Shown: positions 20,495-34,628 of the stretch, one piece after another
How the letters are laid out: each line of letters begins with the position of its first letter
Numbering within the stretch: the first letter of the stretch is position 1
Origin: Opitutaceae bacterium
GTDB lineage: Bacteria; Verrucomicrobiota; Verrucomicrobiia; Opitutales; Opitutaceae
Assembly: GCA_030693515.1 (NCBI GenBank)
Contig: JAUYAK010000076.1
Location: 62,001 to 126,000 of the forward strand
Length of the DNA stretch: 64,000 bases
Reading direction: 5' to 3'
Position numbers and translations under genes: made by a program
The notes under the pieces: generated by a model
Told to the model about the DNA's origin: nothing
What the model saw: only the letters and a program-made list of their open reading frames with translations
The model's database searches: none

Positions 20495-21415
20495 TTAGCG
20501 GCGATTGTAGCGGAGCAGGGTGCGAATGCCCTCGGCGGCGACAAACAGCTGCCGGCCGTCGGCGGAAAAGCATGCGGCCTCGGCCTGCACGAGCGCGGGC
20601 TCGCGCAGGCGCACGGGCGGGCGGGCCAGGGCCTCGGCCCAGGCCTCGCCGGCGCGGCGCGGAAAAAGGAGCAGGTCTCCGTAGGTGAGGACGAGCGCCG
20701 CCGAGCCGTCGGGCGCGAAGTCGAGTGCTGTCACCTCGCCGCGGCGCCGGCCCAGGTAGCCTTTGGCCACACGCTGGGCCGCGCTGAGCAGGGGCAGATG
20801 CGGGACGGCGCCAACGCGGCGTGCGACGGCCAGCTCGCCGTCGGGCGCGTCGAGCGGCACGCGATAGAGCCGCGGCGGTTCGTCACGCTTGGTCAGGAGG
20901 TAGATGGCGCGCTCGGTCACATCCACGGCCATGGCCTCGCAATCGCGCGGGCCGTCTTCATACCGCACGGTCAGCGTGCGCAGGGGGCGGGCGCGCAGCT
21001 CGGTGTCGGGCTTGAGTTCGGCGAGCGCGGGCTCGGCGACGAAGTGGAGCGCGATGGTCGGTCGCTTGGCGTCGTTGTCGCCCGTGTCGCCGACGACGAT
21101 CACGGCCTGGCCGTCGAGTTCGCAGGCGGCGAGGTCCTCCCAGTCCTCGTTCTTCACGCCGCGGAGGTGCAGCGCGCCGAGGCGCCGGCCTTCGGCCGTG
21201 ACGGCATAAAGCGTGGCGGCGCCCCCGCTGTCATCGTGGGTCCAGAGCAGGCCGGGATTGCGGCGCGAGGCGGCAAGGCCGCTGGTTTCGAGCTTGGGCG
21301 GTGCCTCCAGCTGCCCGGCGACCACCGGTCCCGCGAAGGAAGGAGGCTCGGCCGCGGGCAGTAGCGACACGGAGCCTAGGCAGAGACCGGTCGCGACAAC
21401 GCGCGCTAAAAGCAT
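20495..21415 (-). CDS. Secreted beta-propeller-like protein of unknown function
   Basis: About 306 residues from MLLARVVATGLCLGSVSLLPA (signal peptide); an ATG 6 codons earlier is possible. The body shows propeller-like repeats: LETSGLAASRRNPGLLWTHD, GVKNEDWEDLAACELDG, VIVVGDTGDND, DCEAMAVDVTERAIYLLTKR, VTALDFAPDGSAALVLTYGD. These resemble proteins annotated only as integral or secreted hypothetical propellers, with Asp/Glu clusters (EDWEDLA, GDTGDND) suggesting metal binding. It is the upstream gene of a pair with the broken NTF2-like gene and divergent from deoC, sharing a 110-bp promoter gap. Confidence 0.7.
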   Translation of the reverse strand: MLLARVVATGLCLGSVSLLPAAEPPSFAGPVVAGQLEAPPKLETSGLAASRRNPGLLWTHDDSGGAATLYAVTAEGRRLGALHLRGVKNEDWEDLAACELDGQAVIVVGDTGDNDAKRPTIALHFVAEPALAELKPDTELRARPLRTLTVRYEDGPRDCEAMAVDVTERAIYLLTKRDEPPRLYRVPLDAPDGELAVARRVGAVPHLPLLSAAQRVAKGYLGRRRGEVTALDFAPDGSAALVLTYGDLLLFPRRAGEAWAEALARPPVRLREPALVQAEAACFSADGRQLFVAAEGIRTLLRYNRR

Positions 21416-21525
21416 GGGGGCGGCTCGAAACACTCGGGCCTACGATGCTTCCACCGGCACGCGACGCAATCCCGCGGCGGGACTTTTCGTTTGTTTTCGC
21501 TGCGGCCCGCGCGATAGTCCGCGCC

Positions 21526-22470
21526 ATGATCGCGAAGTCTCCCACCGCCGGGTTTCGGCGGCTGTTTGATGAGGTCGGCACTGTCGATGCCGTCGGCATC
21601 GAGGAACGCGTCGCCAAGTTCACCACGCGCTCGATCAAGAAGGCCTCGAAGGTGCAGGGCCTGAAGCTCGCCGTCTCGATGGTCGATCTCACGACGCTCG
21701 AGGGGAAGGACACGCCCGGCAAGGTCGCCTCGCTTTGCCAGAAGGCGCTCGCACCGCACGACGCCGACCTCGGCGCGCCGCAGGTCGCGGCGGTGTGCGT
21801 CTATCCCGCGATGGTCCGGCACGCGCGCAAGGCGCTCGGCAGCGACACCGGGGTGCGCATCGCCTCGGTCGCGACGGCGTTTCCGAGCGGACAGGCGCCG
21901 CTGCGCACCCGCCTCGCCGAGGTGAAGGCCGCCGTCGCCGACGGCGCGGACGAAATCGACATGGTGATCAACCGCGGGGCGTTTCTCGCGGGCGAGTTTG
22001 GCGCGATGCAGGACGAGATTGCCGCCGTGGTCGAAGCCTGCGGTGACACCGCGCTCAAGGTGATCCTGGAGGTGAGCGAGCTCGAGACCTATGACAACAT
22101 CCGCGCCGCCTCCTTCCTCGCCATGCGCGTGATCCGCGAGGGTGATTTCATCAAGACGAGCACCGGCAAGACCTCGCTCAACGCCACGCTCGGCAACAAC
22201 CAGGTGATGCTCGAAGCCATCCGCGATTTCTACCTCGATACGGGCGTCGCCATCGGGATGAAGCCCGCCGGCGGCATCCGCACCGCGAAGCAATCGCTGC
22301 AATTTCTTATCGCTGTGAAGGAGACGCTCGGCGACGCGTGGCTCACCAACGAGCGCTACCGCTTCGGCGCGAGCTCCCTGCTCAACGATCTCCTCCGCCA
22401 GCTTGAAAAGGAAAAGACCGGCGCCTACCAGGCCCCGTATTATTTCAGCGAAGCCGCCGAATCCTACTGA
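21526..22470 (+). CDS. deoC: Deoxyribose-phosphate aldolase
   Basis: A 314-residue class I aldolase cleaving 2-deoxyribose-5-phosphate to glyceraldehyde-3-phosphate and acetaldehyde. The ATG at 21526 gives the expected N-terminus. Active-site residues are visible: Asp145 in EIDMVINRGAF, Schiff-base Lys210 in GDFIKTSTGK, and relay Lys246 in GMKPAGGIRT. It is the first gene of a plus-strand operon with two aldehyde dehydrogenase-family genes, which would dispose of the acetaldehyde. An inverted repeat of about 90 bp sits between it and the next gene and may modulate the transcript. Confidence 0.94.
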   Translation: MIAKSPTAGFRRLFDEVGTVDAVGIEERVAKFTTRSIKKASKVQGLKLAVSMVDLTTLEGKDTPGKVASLCQKALAPHDADLGAPQVAAVCVYPAMVRHARKALGSDTGVRIASVATAFPSGQAPLRTRLAEVKAAVADGADEIDMVINRGAFLAGEFGAMQDEIAAVVEACGDTALKVILEVSELETYDNIRAASFLAMRVIREGDFIKTSTGKTSLNATLGNNQVMLEAIRDFYLDTGVAIGMKPAGGIRTAKQSLQFLIAVKETLGDAWLTNERYRFGASSLLNDLLRQLEKEKTGAYQAPYYFSEAAESY

Positions 22471-22479
22471 TCCAAACCA

Positions 22480-22570
22480 TGCCACAGAGCGCCGACATAG
22501 AGAGCACAGAGACGAGCCGACGTGTATTCCTCTGTGAACTCTGGCTCGGCGCTCCGTGAACTCTGTGGCA
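22480..22570. repeat. Interspersed inverted repeat with TGCCACAGAG ends
   Basis: TGCCACAGAG (22480-22489) and CTCTGTGGCA (22561-22570) are perfect outer arms. A second pair, AGCGCCGA (22488-22495) and TCGGCGCT (22546-22553), lies inside. The interior is rich in CACAGAG/CTCTGTG words, the pattern of a widespread verrucomicrobial intergenic repeat. It fills the deoC to aldehyde dehydrogenase gap and can fold into a long hairpin in the mRNA. Confidence 0.7.
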
Positions 22571-22581
22571 AAAAAATTCCC

Positions 22582-24093
22582 ATGCCCACTTTAGCTGAGA
22601 AAAAATCCACTCGCGGCCCCGCACGCACCGGCCGCCCTGCGCCCGAGCTGATCTTCGGCGATCTCTGGGTGTTCGATCCCGCGCCCGAGAGCGCGGACCC
22701 CAAGCTCAAGCCGCGCTACGATCTCTTCATTGGCGGACAGTTTGTCGCGCCCAAGTCCGGAAAATATTTCGCGTCCATCAATCCCGCCAACGAGCAGAAG
22801 CTCGCCGAGATCGCGCTCGCGGGTCGCGAGGATGTCGATGCCGCCTACGCCGCGGCGGAGCGCGCCTTCAGCACCACGTGGGGCCGGCTGCCCGGCCGCG
22901 AGCGCGCGAAGTATCTCTTCCGCATCGCGCGCCTGCTGCAGGACCGCGCGCGGGAGTTTGCCGTCGCGGAGACGCTCGACGGCGGCAAGCCGATCAAGGA
23001 ATCGCGCGACTTCGACGTGCCGATGGCCGCGGCGCACTTTTTCTACCACGCGGGCTGGGCCGACAAACTCGACTACGTGGCGCCCGGTCGCCGCGTCGCG
23101 CCGCTCGGCGTCGTGGGGCAGGTCATCCCGTGGAATTTCCCGCTGCTGATGCTCGCGTGGAAGATCGCGCCCGCGCTGGCGATGGGCAACACCGTCGTCC
23201 TCAAGCCCGCCGAGACCACGAGCATCACGTGCCTCAAGCTCGCGGAAATTTTGCAGGATGCCGGCCTGCCGCCGGGCACCGTGAATTTCGTGACGGGAGC
23301 CGGCGAGACGGGCGCCGCGGTGATGGGCCACCCGACCGCGGCGAAGGTCGCGTTCACCGGCTCGACCGAGGTCGGCAAGATCATCATGCGGTCGCTCGCG
23401 GGCACCGAGAAGAAGATGACGATGGAGCTCGGCGGCAAGGCGGCGAACATCGTGTTTGACGACGCCCCGATCGATCAGGCGGTCGAGGGCATCGTGAACG
23501 GGATTTTCTTCAACCAGGGCCACGTGTGCTGCGCGGGCTCGCGCCTGCTCGTGCACGAGCCGGTGGCCGACCGTGTGCTCGCCAAGCTGAAGAACCGCCT
23601 CCGCGTGCTCCGCGTGGGCGATCCGATGGACAAGAACACCGACATCGGCGCCATCAACTCGAAGGAGCAGCTCGGCAAGATCGCCGCCCTCGTCGAGAGC
23701 GGCGTGCAGGAGGGCGCGGAAATATTTCAGCCGCCGTGCCGGTTGCCGACAAAGGGTTATTATTTCCGCCCGACGATCTTCAGCGGCGTGAGCATGAGCC
23801 ACCGCATCGCGCGCGAGGAGATCTTCGGTCCCGTGCTGAGCATCCTCACGTTTCGCACGGTCGAGGAGGCGATCGAGAAGGCCAACAACACCGCCTACGG
23901 CCTCAGCGCCGGCGTGTGGACCGACAAGGGCTCGCGCATCCTGAAGATGAGCGTGGAGCTGAAGGCCGGTGTGGTGTGGGCCAACACCTACAACAAATTC
24001 GATCCCGCCTCGCCCTTCGGCGGCTACAAGGAAAGCGGCTTCGGCCGCGAAGGCGGCCGCCAGGGCCTGCTCGATTACTGCAAGCTGGTGTGA
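22582..24093 (+). CDS. Aldehyde dehydrogenase
   Basis: A 503-residue NAD(P)-dependent dehydrogenase from MPTLAEKKS. An ATG 20 codons upstream lies inside the inverted repeat and is unlikely to be used. All key residues are present: oxyanion Asn in VIPWNFP (about 185), cofactor Lys in VVLKPAE (208), the GSTEVGK turn, general-base Glu282 in MELGGK, and catalytic Cys316/317 in NQGHVCCAGSR. It most likely oxidises the acetaldehyde produced by DeoC to acetate, acting in the cytoplasm. The stop codon TGA is also the first triplet of a 22-bp repeat that bounds the inserted GxxExxY cassette. Confidence 0.92.
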   Translation: MPTLAEKKSTRGPARTGRPAPELIFGDLWVFDPAPESADPKLKPRYDLFIGGQFVAPKSGKYFASINPANEQKLAEIALAGREDVDAAYAAAERAFSTTWGRLPGRERAKYLFRIARLLQDRAREFAVAETLDGGKPIKESRDFDVPMAAAHFFYHAGWADKLDYVAPGRRVAPLGVVGQVIPWNFPLLMLAWKIAPALAMGNTVVLKPAETTSITCLKLAEILQDAGLPPGTVNFVTGAGETGAAVMGHPTAAKVAFTGSTEVGKIIMRSLAGTEKKMTMELGGKAANIVFDDAPIDQAVEGIVNGIFFNQGHVCCAGSRLLVHEPVADRVLAKLKNRLRVLRVGDPMDKNTDIGAINSKEQLGKIAALVESGVQEGAEIFQPPCRLPTKGYYFRPTIFSGVSMSHRIAREEIFGPVLSILTFRTVEEAIEKANNTAYGLSAGVWTDKGSRILKMSVELKAGVVWANTYNKFDPASPFGGYKESGFGREGGRQGLLDYCKLV

Positions 24094-24112
24094 ACCACGA
24101 ATGGACACGAAT
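24091..24112. repeat. Left 22-bp inverted repeat of the GxxExxY cassette
   Basis: Identical to the reverse complement of 24508-24529. It begins at the TGA stop of the dehydrogenase gene and includes the ATG (24101) of the GxxExxY gene. A further ACACGAA word continues the similarity beyond the perfect part. Confidence 0.9.
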
Positions 24113-24493
24113 GAACACGAAGGCGGAAAGCTGCTTCACGGGGAATTGGCGTATGCGATCGTGGGTTGTGCTTTTGAAGTGCTGCGGGAGCTGGGGCATG
24201 GGTTGCATGAGAAGCCCTACGAGAATGCACTTGCGGTGGAGTTTGGTCTCCGTGGCATCGCGATTGAGCAACAGCGCCGTTTTGACGTGCTCTACAAGGG
24301 TGTCAGGGTTTCTGAATTTATCCCCGATCTCATTGCCGGGTCGGCGGTGGTCGTGGACACCAAGGTCCTCGACCGCATCACGGATTTCGAGCGCGGCCAG
24401 ATGCTGAACTATCTCCGAATCACCAAACTTCGGGTCGGCCTCATCATTAACTTTCAAAAGCCAAAACTGGAATGGGAGCGCATCGTCCTCTGA
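24101..24493 (+). CDS. GxxExxY family protein
   Basis: A 130-residue protein with the defining signature GLHEKPY (G34, E37, Y40), preceded by AYAIVGCAFEVLRELGHG. Further on, FIPDLIAGSAVVVDTKVL has the PD-x(n)-(D/E)xK spacing of restriction-like nuclease folds, and the C-terminal MLNYLRITKLRVGLIINF is typical. The biochemical role of the family is not established. The first seven codons (MDTNEHE) are encoded by the flanking inverted repeat itself, a common trait of this family's gene copies. There is no ribosome site of its own, so expression probably relies on read-through from the dehydrogenase gene ending 7 nt earlier. Confidence 0.88.
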   Translation: MDTNEHEGGKLLHGELAYAIVGCAFEVLRELGHGLHEKPYENALAVEFGLRGIAIEQQRRFDVLYKGVRVSEFIPDLIAGSAVVVDTKVLDRITDFERGQMLNYLRITKLRVGLIINFQKPKLEWERIVL

Positions 24494-24507
24494 ATTCGTT
24501 CGTGTAG

Positions 24508-24529
24508 ATTCGTGTCCATTCGTGGTTCA
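24508..24529. repeat. Right 22-bp inverted repeat of the GxxExxY cassette
   Basis: Perfect inverted copy of 24091-24112, located 7 nt before the ATG of the short aldehyde dehydrogenase homologue. Confidence 0.9.
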
Positions 24530-24536
24530 AAAAATC

Positions 24537-25400
24537 ATGCCCCGTCTCCTCATCACCAAGACCCCCAAGCCCTATGTCGGCGGCGCGTTCATCCGCTCGG
24601 AGAGCGGGCGCACGTTTCCCGTCAGCGACGCGGCGGGAAATTTCTTCGCCAACATCCCGCAGTGCACGCGCAAGGATCTGCGCAACGCCGTCGAGGCGGC
24701 CGCCAAGGCCGGCCCCGGCTGGGCGAAGCGCACCGCTTACAACCGCGGCCAGATCCTCTATCGCCTCGGGGAGATGCTGGAGGGCCGCCGCGCGGAGCTG
24801 ATCGACACGCTGGTGCGTTTCGGCGGCACGAAGGCCGCCGCGGCGAAGGAGGTCGAGGTCGCGACCGACCGCCTGATCTACTACGCCGGCTGGGCCGACA
24901 AGTATGAGCAGGTGCTCGGTAATGTTAATCCCGTGGCTTCGCCGCACTTCAACTTCACGGTCACGGAGCCCATGGGTGTCATCGGGGTGATCGCGCCCGC
25001 GGCGCCGGCGTTGCTCGGGCTCGTGTCGCTCGTTGCGCCGTTGATTGTGAGCGGCAACACCGTGGTCGCGCTGGCTTCGGAAAAGACGCCTTATCCCTCC
25101 ATTCTGCTCGGCGAGATGCTCGCGACGAGCGACCTGCCCGGCGGCGTGGTCAACCTGCTCACCGGCTTCCGCCCGGAGCTCGTGCCGACGTTTGCGACGC
25201 ACACGCACCTGCGCGCGATCAGCGCGGCGGGGTTGTCCGCGGACGAGAGCAAGGCCATCCGCCTCGGCGCCGCCGAGAGCGTTAAGCGCGTGCACTGTCT
25301 CGCGGACGAGACCCGGTGGCTCTCCGACGCGGCGCAGGATCTCTACGCGATCCGCGAGGGTCTCGAGTTCAAGACCACGTGGCACCCCATCGGGGCGTGA
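24537..25400 (+). CDS. Short aldehyde dehydrogenase homologue lacking catalytic residues
   Basis: A 287-residue protein corresponding to only the N-terminal (cofactor-binding) half of the aldehyde dehydrogenase fold. Aligned by eye with the neighbour: PMGVIGVIAPAAPALL replaces the region of VIPWNFP, so the oxyanion Asn is lost. SGNTVVALASE replaces GNTVVLKPAE, so the cofactor Lys is lost. The Glu of ELGGK and the catalytic Cys region are absent because the protein ends there. The frame is intact and the start at MPRLLITKTPKPYVGGAF looks natural, so this is probably a maintained pseudo-enzyme or structural partner of the full-length dehydrogenase rather than a recent truncation. Confidence 0.8.
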   Translation: MPRLLITKTPKPYVGGAFIRSESGRTFPVSDAAGNFFANIPQCTRKDLRNAVEAAAKAGPGWAKRTAYNRGQILYRLGEMLEGRRAELIDTLVRFGGTKAAAAKEVEVATDRLIYYAGWADKYEQVLGNVNPVASPHFNFTVTEPMGVIGVIAPAAPALLGLVSLVAPLIVSGNTVVALASEKTPYPSILLGEMLATSDLPGGVVNLLTGFRPELVPTFATHTHLRAISAAGLSADESKAIRLGAAESVKRVHCLADETRWLSDAAQDLYAIREGLEFKTTWHPIGA

Positions 25401-34286: not shown

Positions 34287-34628
34287 ATGACCAAGAAGAA
34301 AGAAGTCGGGGCAACGCCCCGGCAGTGTGACGCGGCGTTCAAGGCGGAAGCCGTGCGTCTGTGGCAAAGTAGCCGGGACTCGGCGGAGAAGACCGCTCAG
34401 GAACTGGGGATCAGTGTATTCAACCTCTACAAGTGGAAGCGGGAGGGCGCGGCGCCCCGGGCCGCCGGGGCGTTGCGCCCTCCCGCTTCGACGGAGGAAT
34501 TGCAGGTCGAGGTCGAACGCATGCAGCGCGAGCTGGCGCGCATGACTGAACAACGTGATATCCTTAAAAAAGCCGCGGGCATCCTCTCCGAACCGTCGCC
34601 GAGCGGCATGCCCGGATTCAAGCGATGA
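34287..34628 (+). CDS. IS3-family transposase OrfA
   Basis: A 113-residue helix-turn-helix protein that binds the element ends. It shows FKAEAVRLWQ, TAQELGISVFNLYKWKRE, and a C-terminal leucine-zipper-like coiled coil (EELQVEVERMQRELARM, EQRDILKKAAGIL). The stop overlaps the orfB start (ATGA, 34625-34628), so the two may be translationally coupled; a frameshift fusion, as in many IS3 elements, was not examined further. Confidence 0.93.
   Translation: MTKKKEVGATPRQCDAAFKAEAVRLWQSSRDSAEKTAQELGISVFNLYKWKREGAAPRAAGALRPPASTEELQVEVERMQRELARMTEQRDILKKAAGILSEPSPSGMPGFKR

Follow-up and report, generated by a model that had tools for sequence, protein, structure and literature searches.

The window, meaning the whole 64-kb stretch of DNA analysed, carries an array of genes that all lie on the plus strand. 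A deoC ORF (21301-22470, mechanically assigned start) stands upstream of an aldehyde dehydrogenase ORF, ALDH1 (22522-24093, mechanical GTG start), followed by a GxxExxY gene (24101-24493) and a short aldehyde dehydrogenase-like gene, ALDH2 (24537-25400), which aligns to roughly the first half of the Aldedh model. The GxxExxY gene lies between inverted arms (24091-24121 and 24499-24529), the whole forming a cassette of 439 nt with a loop of 377 nt. A first-pass annotation had described this unit as exactly bounded by perfect 22-bp repeats. The outer 22 nt are indeed perfectly complementary, but they belong to a longer, imperfect arm pair of 31 nt (29/31, 94%) made up of three heptamers. The left arm reads, on the plus strand, CACGAAT (24096-24102), CACGAAT (24106-24112) and CACGAAG (24116-24122), the last reaching 1 base beyond the paired arm; the right arm spells the same code on the minus strand as CACGAAT, CACGAAT and then CACGAA. 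Each arm holds three direct copies of CAC-GAA(T) type at a step of 10 nt. The first letters of the arm are TGAACCAC, and the GTAG-tagged palindromes of REPs are absent.

A scripted search of the window for inverted repeats of at least 18 nt and at least 85% identity spanning less than 700 nt returned five, of which the cassette arm pair was the longest; three crude shuffles of the window in dinucleotide blocks returned 1, 3 and 0. Allowing up to 3 mismatches, the window contains two copies of the core TTCGTGTCCATTCGTGGTT, where 0.02 would be expected. As the first-pass annotation had noted, the left arm contains both the ALDH1 stop TGA (24091-24093) and the GxxExxY ATG (24101-24103). At many other GxxExxY loci the ATG lies downstream of the arm, and its position within the arm is a property of the present code, which contains AATG, rather than of the whole family. 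No HUH tyrosine or DDE transposase was found between the arms, where the enclosed gene matches only TIGR04256 and PF13366. There was no Rfam match in the 64-kb window, and the cassette lies between two ALDH genes, not in a 23S rRNA gene. The deoC-ALDH1 gap holds a gene-less inverted-repeat stretch of CACAGAG type (22480-22570), imperfect, recognised by eye and below the criteria of the scripted search, which is likely a second element beside the cassette. Elsewhere in the window, positions 34436-34489 form a GC-rich, near-perfect 25-bp hairpin with a 4-nt loop.

The GxxExxY gene encodes a 130-residue PD-(D/E)XK protein that matched TIGR04256 (GxxExxY) with 126 bits (cut-off 35) and PF13366 (PDDEXK_3) with 116 bits (cut-off 22). 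Residues E37, D76 and K88 fall in invariant columns of an alignment of 22 members, and position 86 is nearly always Glu and is Asp here, which bears out the nuclease-like PD...DxK arrangement first proposed for this gene. The E, PD, (D/E)xK and QxxxY motifs read off the same alignment are the set of Cas4, lambda exonuclease and RecB-type nucleases. Searching PDB sequences with the window protein gave two weak matches alone (E 0.3 and 0.8) and no convincing solved relative. An AlphaFold2 model had a mean pLDDT of 91, and its best Foldseek matches in the PDB were lambda exonuclease (E 1.8e-3), LHK-Exo and Cas4 SSO0001, none at E <=0.001. VIA-align superposed the predicted model (residues 32-130) on Cas4 SSO0001 with Z 10.2 over 98 residues at 3.1 A rmsd, the rows after it having Z 7.8 and lower. 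The predicted GxxExxY fold resembles Cas4. Because this match spans residues 32-130, helix 1 (13-31), the bearer of the covarying residue described below, lies outside it. We know of no activity for any GxxExxY protein, and found no report of one in the open literature.

Inverted arms and the heptamer code

We collected GxxExxY loci from the same family (94), from the phylum (63) and from named GTDB contigs of many phyla (80); the sample is non-random, each listing's best-scoring matches being taken first. With a local-alignment score of at least 16 as the criterion, inverted arms were present at 162 of 234 scored loci and 72 fell below it, the scorable loci of the three sets contributing 72/94, 44/62 and 46/78. 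Mismatched pairings, in which the upstream side of one locus was set against the downstream side of another, reached 16 in 3.8%, 1.8% and 5.9% of cases for family, phylum and GTDB. Control ORFs of 101-200 codons at the GTDB loci did so in 5/893 cases when counted once per stop and in 7/1,800 with nested starts, and one of the five positives is a second GxxExxY gene (in L280). Two pairs of entries are duplicates (L161 and L182, the same gene; L274 and the G044 locus L021), and none of the four scores 16, which leaves 162 positives among 232 distinct loci. A later set added 40 loci, of which 23 scored at least 16. These comparisons, together with shuffles, rule out chance or artefact, and MAGs and isolates (e.g. 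L265, L279) agree. The possibility, raised at first reading, that the repeat is never tied to GxxExxY genes does not hold, and what was observed in the window is one instance of a general rule. Among the positive GTDB loci are Bacteroides neonati (L265), Stieleria tagensis (L279), a Parachlamydiales MAG (L243) and a Methanosarcinales contig (L254, score 16.5). GxxExxY genes occur in many phyla and, at 1-11 copies, in 52 of 61 sampled family genomes. We saw no sign that this is a usual phage gene in a limited, pattern-based scan of viral contigs (six-sequence alignment, 2 loci), or a usual plasmid gene in a limited tblastn search with the window protein (8 of 72,556 plasmid records).

Arms also frame an unrelated family. 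Four-helix-bundle genes (TIGR02436, the S23 family of rRNA intervening sequences) scored at least 16 at 22 of 30 loci in relatives (mismatched pairings, 8.4%), with four of the 30, whose gene position was wrongly set and whose translation was truncated or odd, counted as negative. The inverted arms at these loci (L360-L389) consist of words repeated in tandem, GTAGCGAGTAGCG and AGGAGTCAGGAGTC among them, and are spelled unlike GxxExxY arms. The lifestyle is therefore wider than GxxExxY, and architecture alone is no proof that the nuclease is the mover. This keeps alive the explanation that the gene is a passenger, the arms being those of a MITE-like element that a different transposase mobilises, and the match between gene and arms reflecting co-inheritance as one unit. 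Separately, at one GxxExxY locus (L215, 685-1217) the region upstream of the GxxExxY gene has facing CACAGAG-type arms that enclose a different ORF; at a guess, this ORF may encode another nuclease-like protein.

A GxxExxY arm consists of about three direct heptamers of the form C(A/G)C-N-x-A-y, some loci having other first triplets, and the commonest periods are 9, 8 and 10 nt. Automatic coding was at first ambiguous for many loci, and an anchored rule was used instead, applied to each side separately over 130 nt. By this rule 142/237 left and 151/237 right sides were codable, compared with 26 and 28 in the opposite orientation and 25 of 1,348 background segments. Bases x and y vary across loci and are identical between the two arms of a locus in all 116 of 116 independently coded cases, against a mean of 39.7 and a maximum of 57 under shuffling. 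Position 4 departs most often from the locus consensus: over 1,140 repeat copies with 5 or more of the 7 letters correct, its mismatch rate was 0.18, compared with 0.07-0.08 for positions 1 and 2 and 0.03-0.05 for positions 3, 5, 6 and 7. Judged by eye, the GxxExxY genes within a genome are mostly of differing codes, and identical codes recur across genomes. One genome (G050, contig C21:46545-46611) carries CACTGAT heptamers in tandem at 10-nt steps in a run exceeding the usual three.

The code follows the protein tree. Over 156 coded loci it changes 26 times, compared with a shuffled mean of 69.7 and none of 200 shuffles as low, and one branch (support 83) divides 109 rows, without exception xAG, from 47 others that are xAT or xAA in 43 cases. 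This clade signal could be explained by co-inheritance alone, as the passenger explanation would have it.

Helix 1 and heptamer position 5

We screened residues against arm bases in 169 proteins (170 coded loci less one identical protein; uncodable loci were left out), four of which have an in-frame stop. Alignment column 1 lies close to where helix 1 begins and corresponds to residue 17 of the window protein (Ala17). Proteins with Thr in this column had G at heptamer position 5 in 91 cases and A in 1; the remainder, with other residues there, had G in 27 and A in 49. As independent contrasts, taken as bottom-up pairs on the best tree, the association of Thr with G stood at 17.8 to 0 (p=7.6e-6, 154 tests), and at 14 to 0 among xAG loci alone. 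Restricted to strongly supported branches, 7 pairs gave about 3.6 to 0 with a median p of 0.125, which is non-significant. Glu at column 2 followed the same trend (8.5 to 0) and was lost after correction for multiple testing, and no further residue-base pair among the 154 tests survived it, heptamer positions 2 and 4 included. Overrun of the arm into the coding sequence is ruled out as the cause of the Thr-G association, since codes from the downstream arm alone gave 83 G/1 A with Thr and 27 G/44 A without, and Thr was encoded by all four of its codons, with at most 15 of 92 explicable as an extra heptamer. At the ALDH site itself, where four orthologous cassettes can be compared, the one in G071 combines GGAT arms with Thr, and in the remaining three A at position 5 accompanies Ala, Val and Val.

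A prediction declared beforehand was applied to 40 held-out loci. Under the original rule 19 could be coded, with 4 G/0 A for Thr and 7 G/8 A for non-Thr (p=0.10), which agrees with the association but is too small a set for significance. A wider rule, permitting more first triplets and adopted after the arms had been seen, coded 23 and gave 8 G/0 A and 7 G/8 A (p=0.019). The same wider rule coded 24 of 120 older loci outside the discovery set, with 10 G/2 A and 6 G/6 A (p=0.19).

Passive linkage does not predict that one particular residue should track one particular base, as is seen over numerous independent switches and again at an orthologous site. Nor was a transposase seen inside the cassettes inspected, an inspection that was unsystematic. 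On the other side, we know of no transposition activity, and the four-helix-bundle cassettes show that an unrelated protein can occupy the same architecture (22/30). Weighing these points, we regard a passenger role as rather unlikely. The GxxExxY protein probably recognises its own arms, a reading that rests on sequence covariation. The first-pass annotation had called the cassette a non-autonomous mobile gene; the covariation suggests instead that the encoded protein is what reads the repeats. Because the protein residue covaries with the repeat base, the gene-bearing form is the likelier source, and the short gene-less forms would be the non-autonomous ones.

Junctions in relatives and gene-less elements

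The ALDH1 protein was searched in 38 genomes including its own, yielding 21 close ALDH1-ALDH2 loci (own included) that were classed by eye. Four contain a GxxExxY gene, eight a short spacer only, one a solo arm (L058), six gene-less inverted repeats of other words and two other sequence. The three other GxxExxY proteins at this junction are 72-76% identical to the window protein. Seventeen of the 21 junctions lack the gene (17 of 20 relatives); empty sites anticipated in the first-pass annotation thus exist, and its alternative, that the gene is always present at this place, does not apply. At a second site, that of a gene-less CACGAAT element on contig C126 of the window's own genome, the junction was readable across in 16 of 18 relatives and the element was present in none; by eye, these 16 comprise 6 tight gaps, 8 inverted repeats of other words and 2 unclear cases. 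From the comparisons at these two sites, elements come and go and both gaps have been used repeatedly. Comparing relatives by eye revealed neither a clean target-site duplication nor an exact junction at either site. The two junctions compared both lie between co-directional genes; the earlier suggestion that the repeats are adapted to land in operons is a tentative one, and the ATG within the arm is tied to the code and not to the family.

Such positions would also suit a role in RNA, in which the arms form a long-range stem with the gene in its loop, either processed by an enzyme such as RNase III or serving as a hairpin in the operon, in the manner of 23S intervening sequences, with spread incidental. 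The arms are long and well paired, and an S23 gene of Coxiella is described, in the part of the source available, within a 428-nt selfish element in helix 45 of 23S rRNA (PMC4990558). Pairing, however, needs neither direct heptamers with a locus-wide code nor a link to a protein residue, and solo arms exist (L058). We consider this role improbable.

The repeat also occurs away from any GxxExxY gene in its own genome (6.65 Mb, 130 contigs), and the search for further copies proposed in the first-pass annotation thus turned out in its favour. The core repeat has 14 matches there at up to 2 mismatches (reversed control, 0), which resolve into six facing pairs, namely the window cassette and five gene-less elements of 81-147 bp, and two arms partnerless at up to 2 mismatches. 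A lax pattern scan of this genome for arm counts was too noisy to use (296 matches; reversed control 144). In G000, gene-less elements of one code have loops that by eye look unrelated and are therefore no mere duplicates of one another; in G020 the loops of such elements are alike. Five GxxExxY genes are present in the window's genome, with arms that by eye are of types CACAGAG, CACTAAT (one arm, the opposite side meeting an apparent IS end), GCGGAA, CACGGAT and CACGAAT, and automatic inverted-repeat scores of 18, 8, 17, 9.5 and 26, so that two fail the threshold of 16. At L002 (1-170, G000 contig C58) a CACTAAT-type right arm is present and the left side meets the end of an apparent transposase gene, perhaps of IS3 type.

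Across 28 genomes, we set whole-genome counts of an arm word against whether the genome has a GxxExxY gene with the same word at its flanks. They comprised the window's own, few-contig genomes (G009, which also qualified, was omitted by mistake) and four picked after high counts (G010, G043, G050 and G053); two small gene fragments were left out. Genomes with a matching gene had 205, 89, 80, 29 and 14 gene-less TAAT matches, compared with a median of 0 and a maximum of 17 in those without (p=0.0002). For GAAA the counts were 183, 55, 31 and 23, compared with a median of 5.5 and a maximum of 117 (p=0.004). Without the four picked genomes the associations stood at p=0.007 for TAAT and p=0.02 for GAAA, on 2 and 3 positive genomes. 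The association for TGAT was non-significant in the 28 genomes (p=0.14), because genomes with TAAT genes also contain TGAT arms; the TAAT and TGAT protein groups are neighbours on the tree. G050 and G005 have many TGAT arms (204 and 61) and no TGAT-flanked gene that we found, and the TGAT gene of G043 was missed by the strict flanking criterion. With the three words summed over 61 genomes, the median was 3 in the 9 without GxxExxY and 19 in the 52 with it (p=0.0004). Gene-less arms of a gene's own code reached up to 209 pattern matches within the same genome. At two loci (L336, 10741-11032; L337, 670-890) the inverted repeat of one word appears, by eye, nested within an element of another.

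A defence or homing nuclease, cutting sites with or without heptamers and protecting or copying itself by repair with no transposition, would suit both a predicted PD-(D/E)XK fold near Cas4 and Holliday-junction resolvases and the recognition of short direct repeats, but is highly improbable given the many same-code gene-less arms per genome, which a self-cutter could not tolerate unless it needed a special substrate.

Proposed mechanism and known systems

The explanation we favour, to which we assign a probability of roughly 0.57, is that the cassettes are elements of a REPIN/RAYT-like kind, driven by a Cas4-like nuclease able to recognise the repeats around its own gene, with catalysis and transposition as putative activities. 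The window cassette would belong to a large family of small elements bounded by repeats, in each of which a Cas4/RecB-type nuclease gene lies between inverted arms of about three C-R-C-N-x-A-y heptamers, mostly 8-10 nt apart. The heptamers would be bound by the GxxExxY protein, three sites per end, with base x read by at least the first turn of helix 1. The protein would then most likely nick or trim the ends, or an arm-arm hairpin formed in single-stranded DNA. Such nicking or trimming could allow spread, often into tight intergenic gaps, both of the element and of gene-less copies sharing its arms. Because gene and arms evolve together, new codes would arise and several systems of differing code could share a genome.

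That the spelling of the repeat changes in step with the nuclease suggests a mobile-element family, so far undescribed, whose enzyme reads its own repeats. We advance more tentatively, and somewhat short of judging it probable, the broader proposal of an undescribed class of mobile elements across bacterial phyla and at least one archaeal contig, run by mini Cas4-like nucleases whose helix 1 reads a variable heptamer in their own arms, with S23 four-helix-bundle cassettes, rRNA intervening sequences included, as a parallel branch. Such a class would have many distinct codes, and specificity would therefore be readable from sequence. If the function is tied to the dispersed repeats, common unexplained bacterial repeats (CACAGAG, CACGAAT, CACTAAT and similar) would be explained, a Cas4-like enzyme would join the engines of mobile DNA, and nature would offer a protein-DNA code testable residue by base. 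We found no prior description of such elements in the open literature, most subscription journals lying outside this scope; GxxExxY genes are there named in passing only, and the identifiers TIGR04256 and TIGR02436 were not found. In the available text of two reports GxxExxY is only a passing label (PMC8934634, PMC12085832).

The closest parallel is with REPIN/REP sequences and RAYTs (REPtrons, TIRtrons), in which, according to the available portions of the sources, a dedicated enzyme gene has repeats on either side, which also occur scattered on their own, mostly in intergenic positions (PMC3733652, PMC3116915, PMC2817692). The GxxExxY gene is likewise flanked by repeats that occur elsewhere gene-less, and the repeat families are likewise tied to an enzyme copy. 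Unlike RAYTs, which are HUH/tyrosine enzymes of IS200 type, the cassette encodes a Cas4-like PD-(D/E)XK protein, and unlike REPs with their GTAG tag, its arms consist of three direct heptamers of variable code. The intervening sequences of 23S rRNA are framed by complementary arms. They resemble the cassette in carrying a small gene and in size, the Coxiella example being given as 428 nt in the available part of its report (PMC4990558) and the cassette measuring 439 nt. They differ in protein family and in repeat words, and the cassette lies between protein genes. In Thiomargarita, the authors of one study tentatively linked a MITE family with a PD-(D/E)XK_2 (YhgA) endonuclease gene; that gene belongs to PF12784, the elements have 10-bp direct and 19-bp inverted repeats, and, unlike for the cassette, no heptamer code is described in the available part of that report (PMC4853749). 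In its predicted core fold the GxxExxY protein is like the Cas4, lambda exonuclease and RecB-type nucleases. It differs from Cas4 in having 130 residues, compared with 202 in the SSO0001 chain, in an N-terminal helix outside the match, and in standing alone within repeat cassettes.
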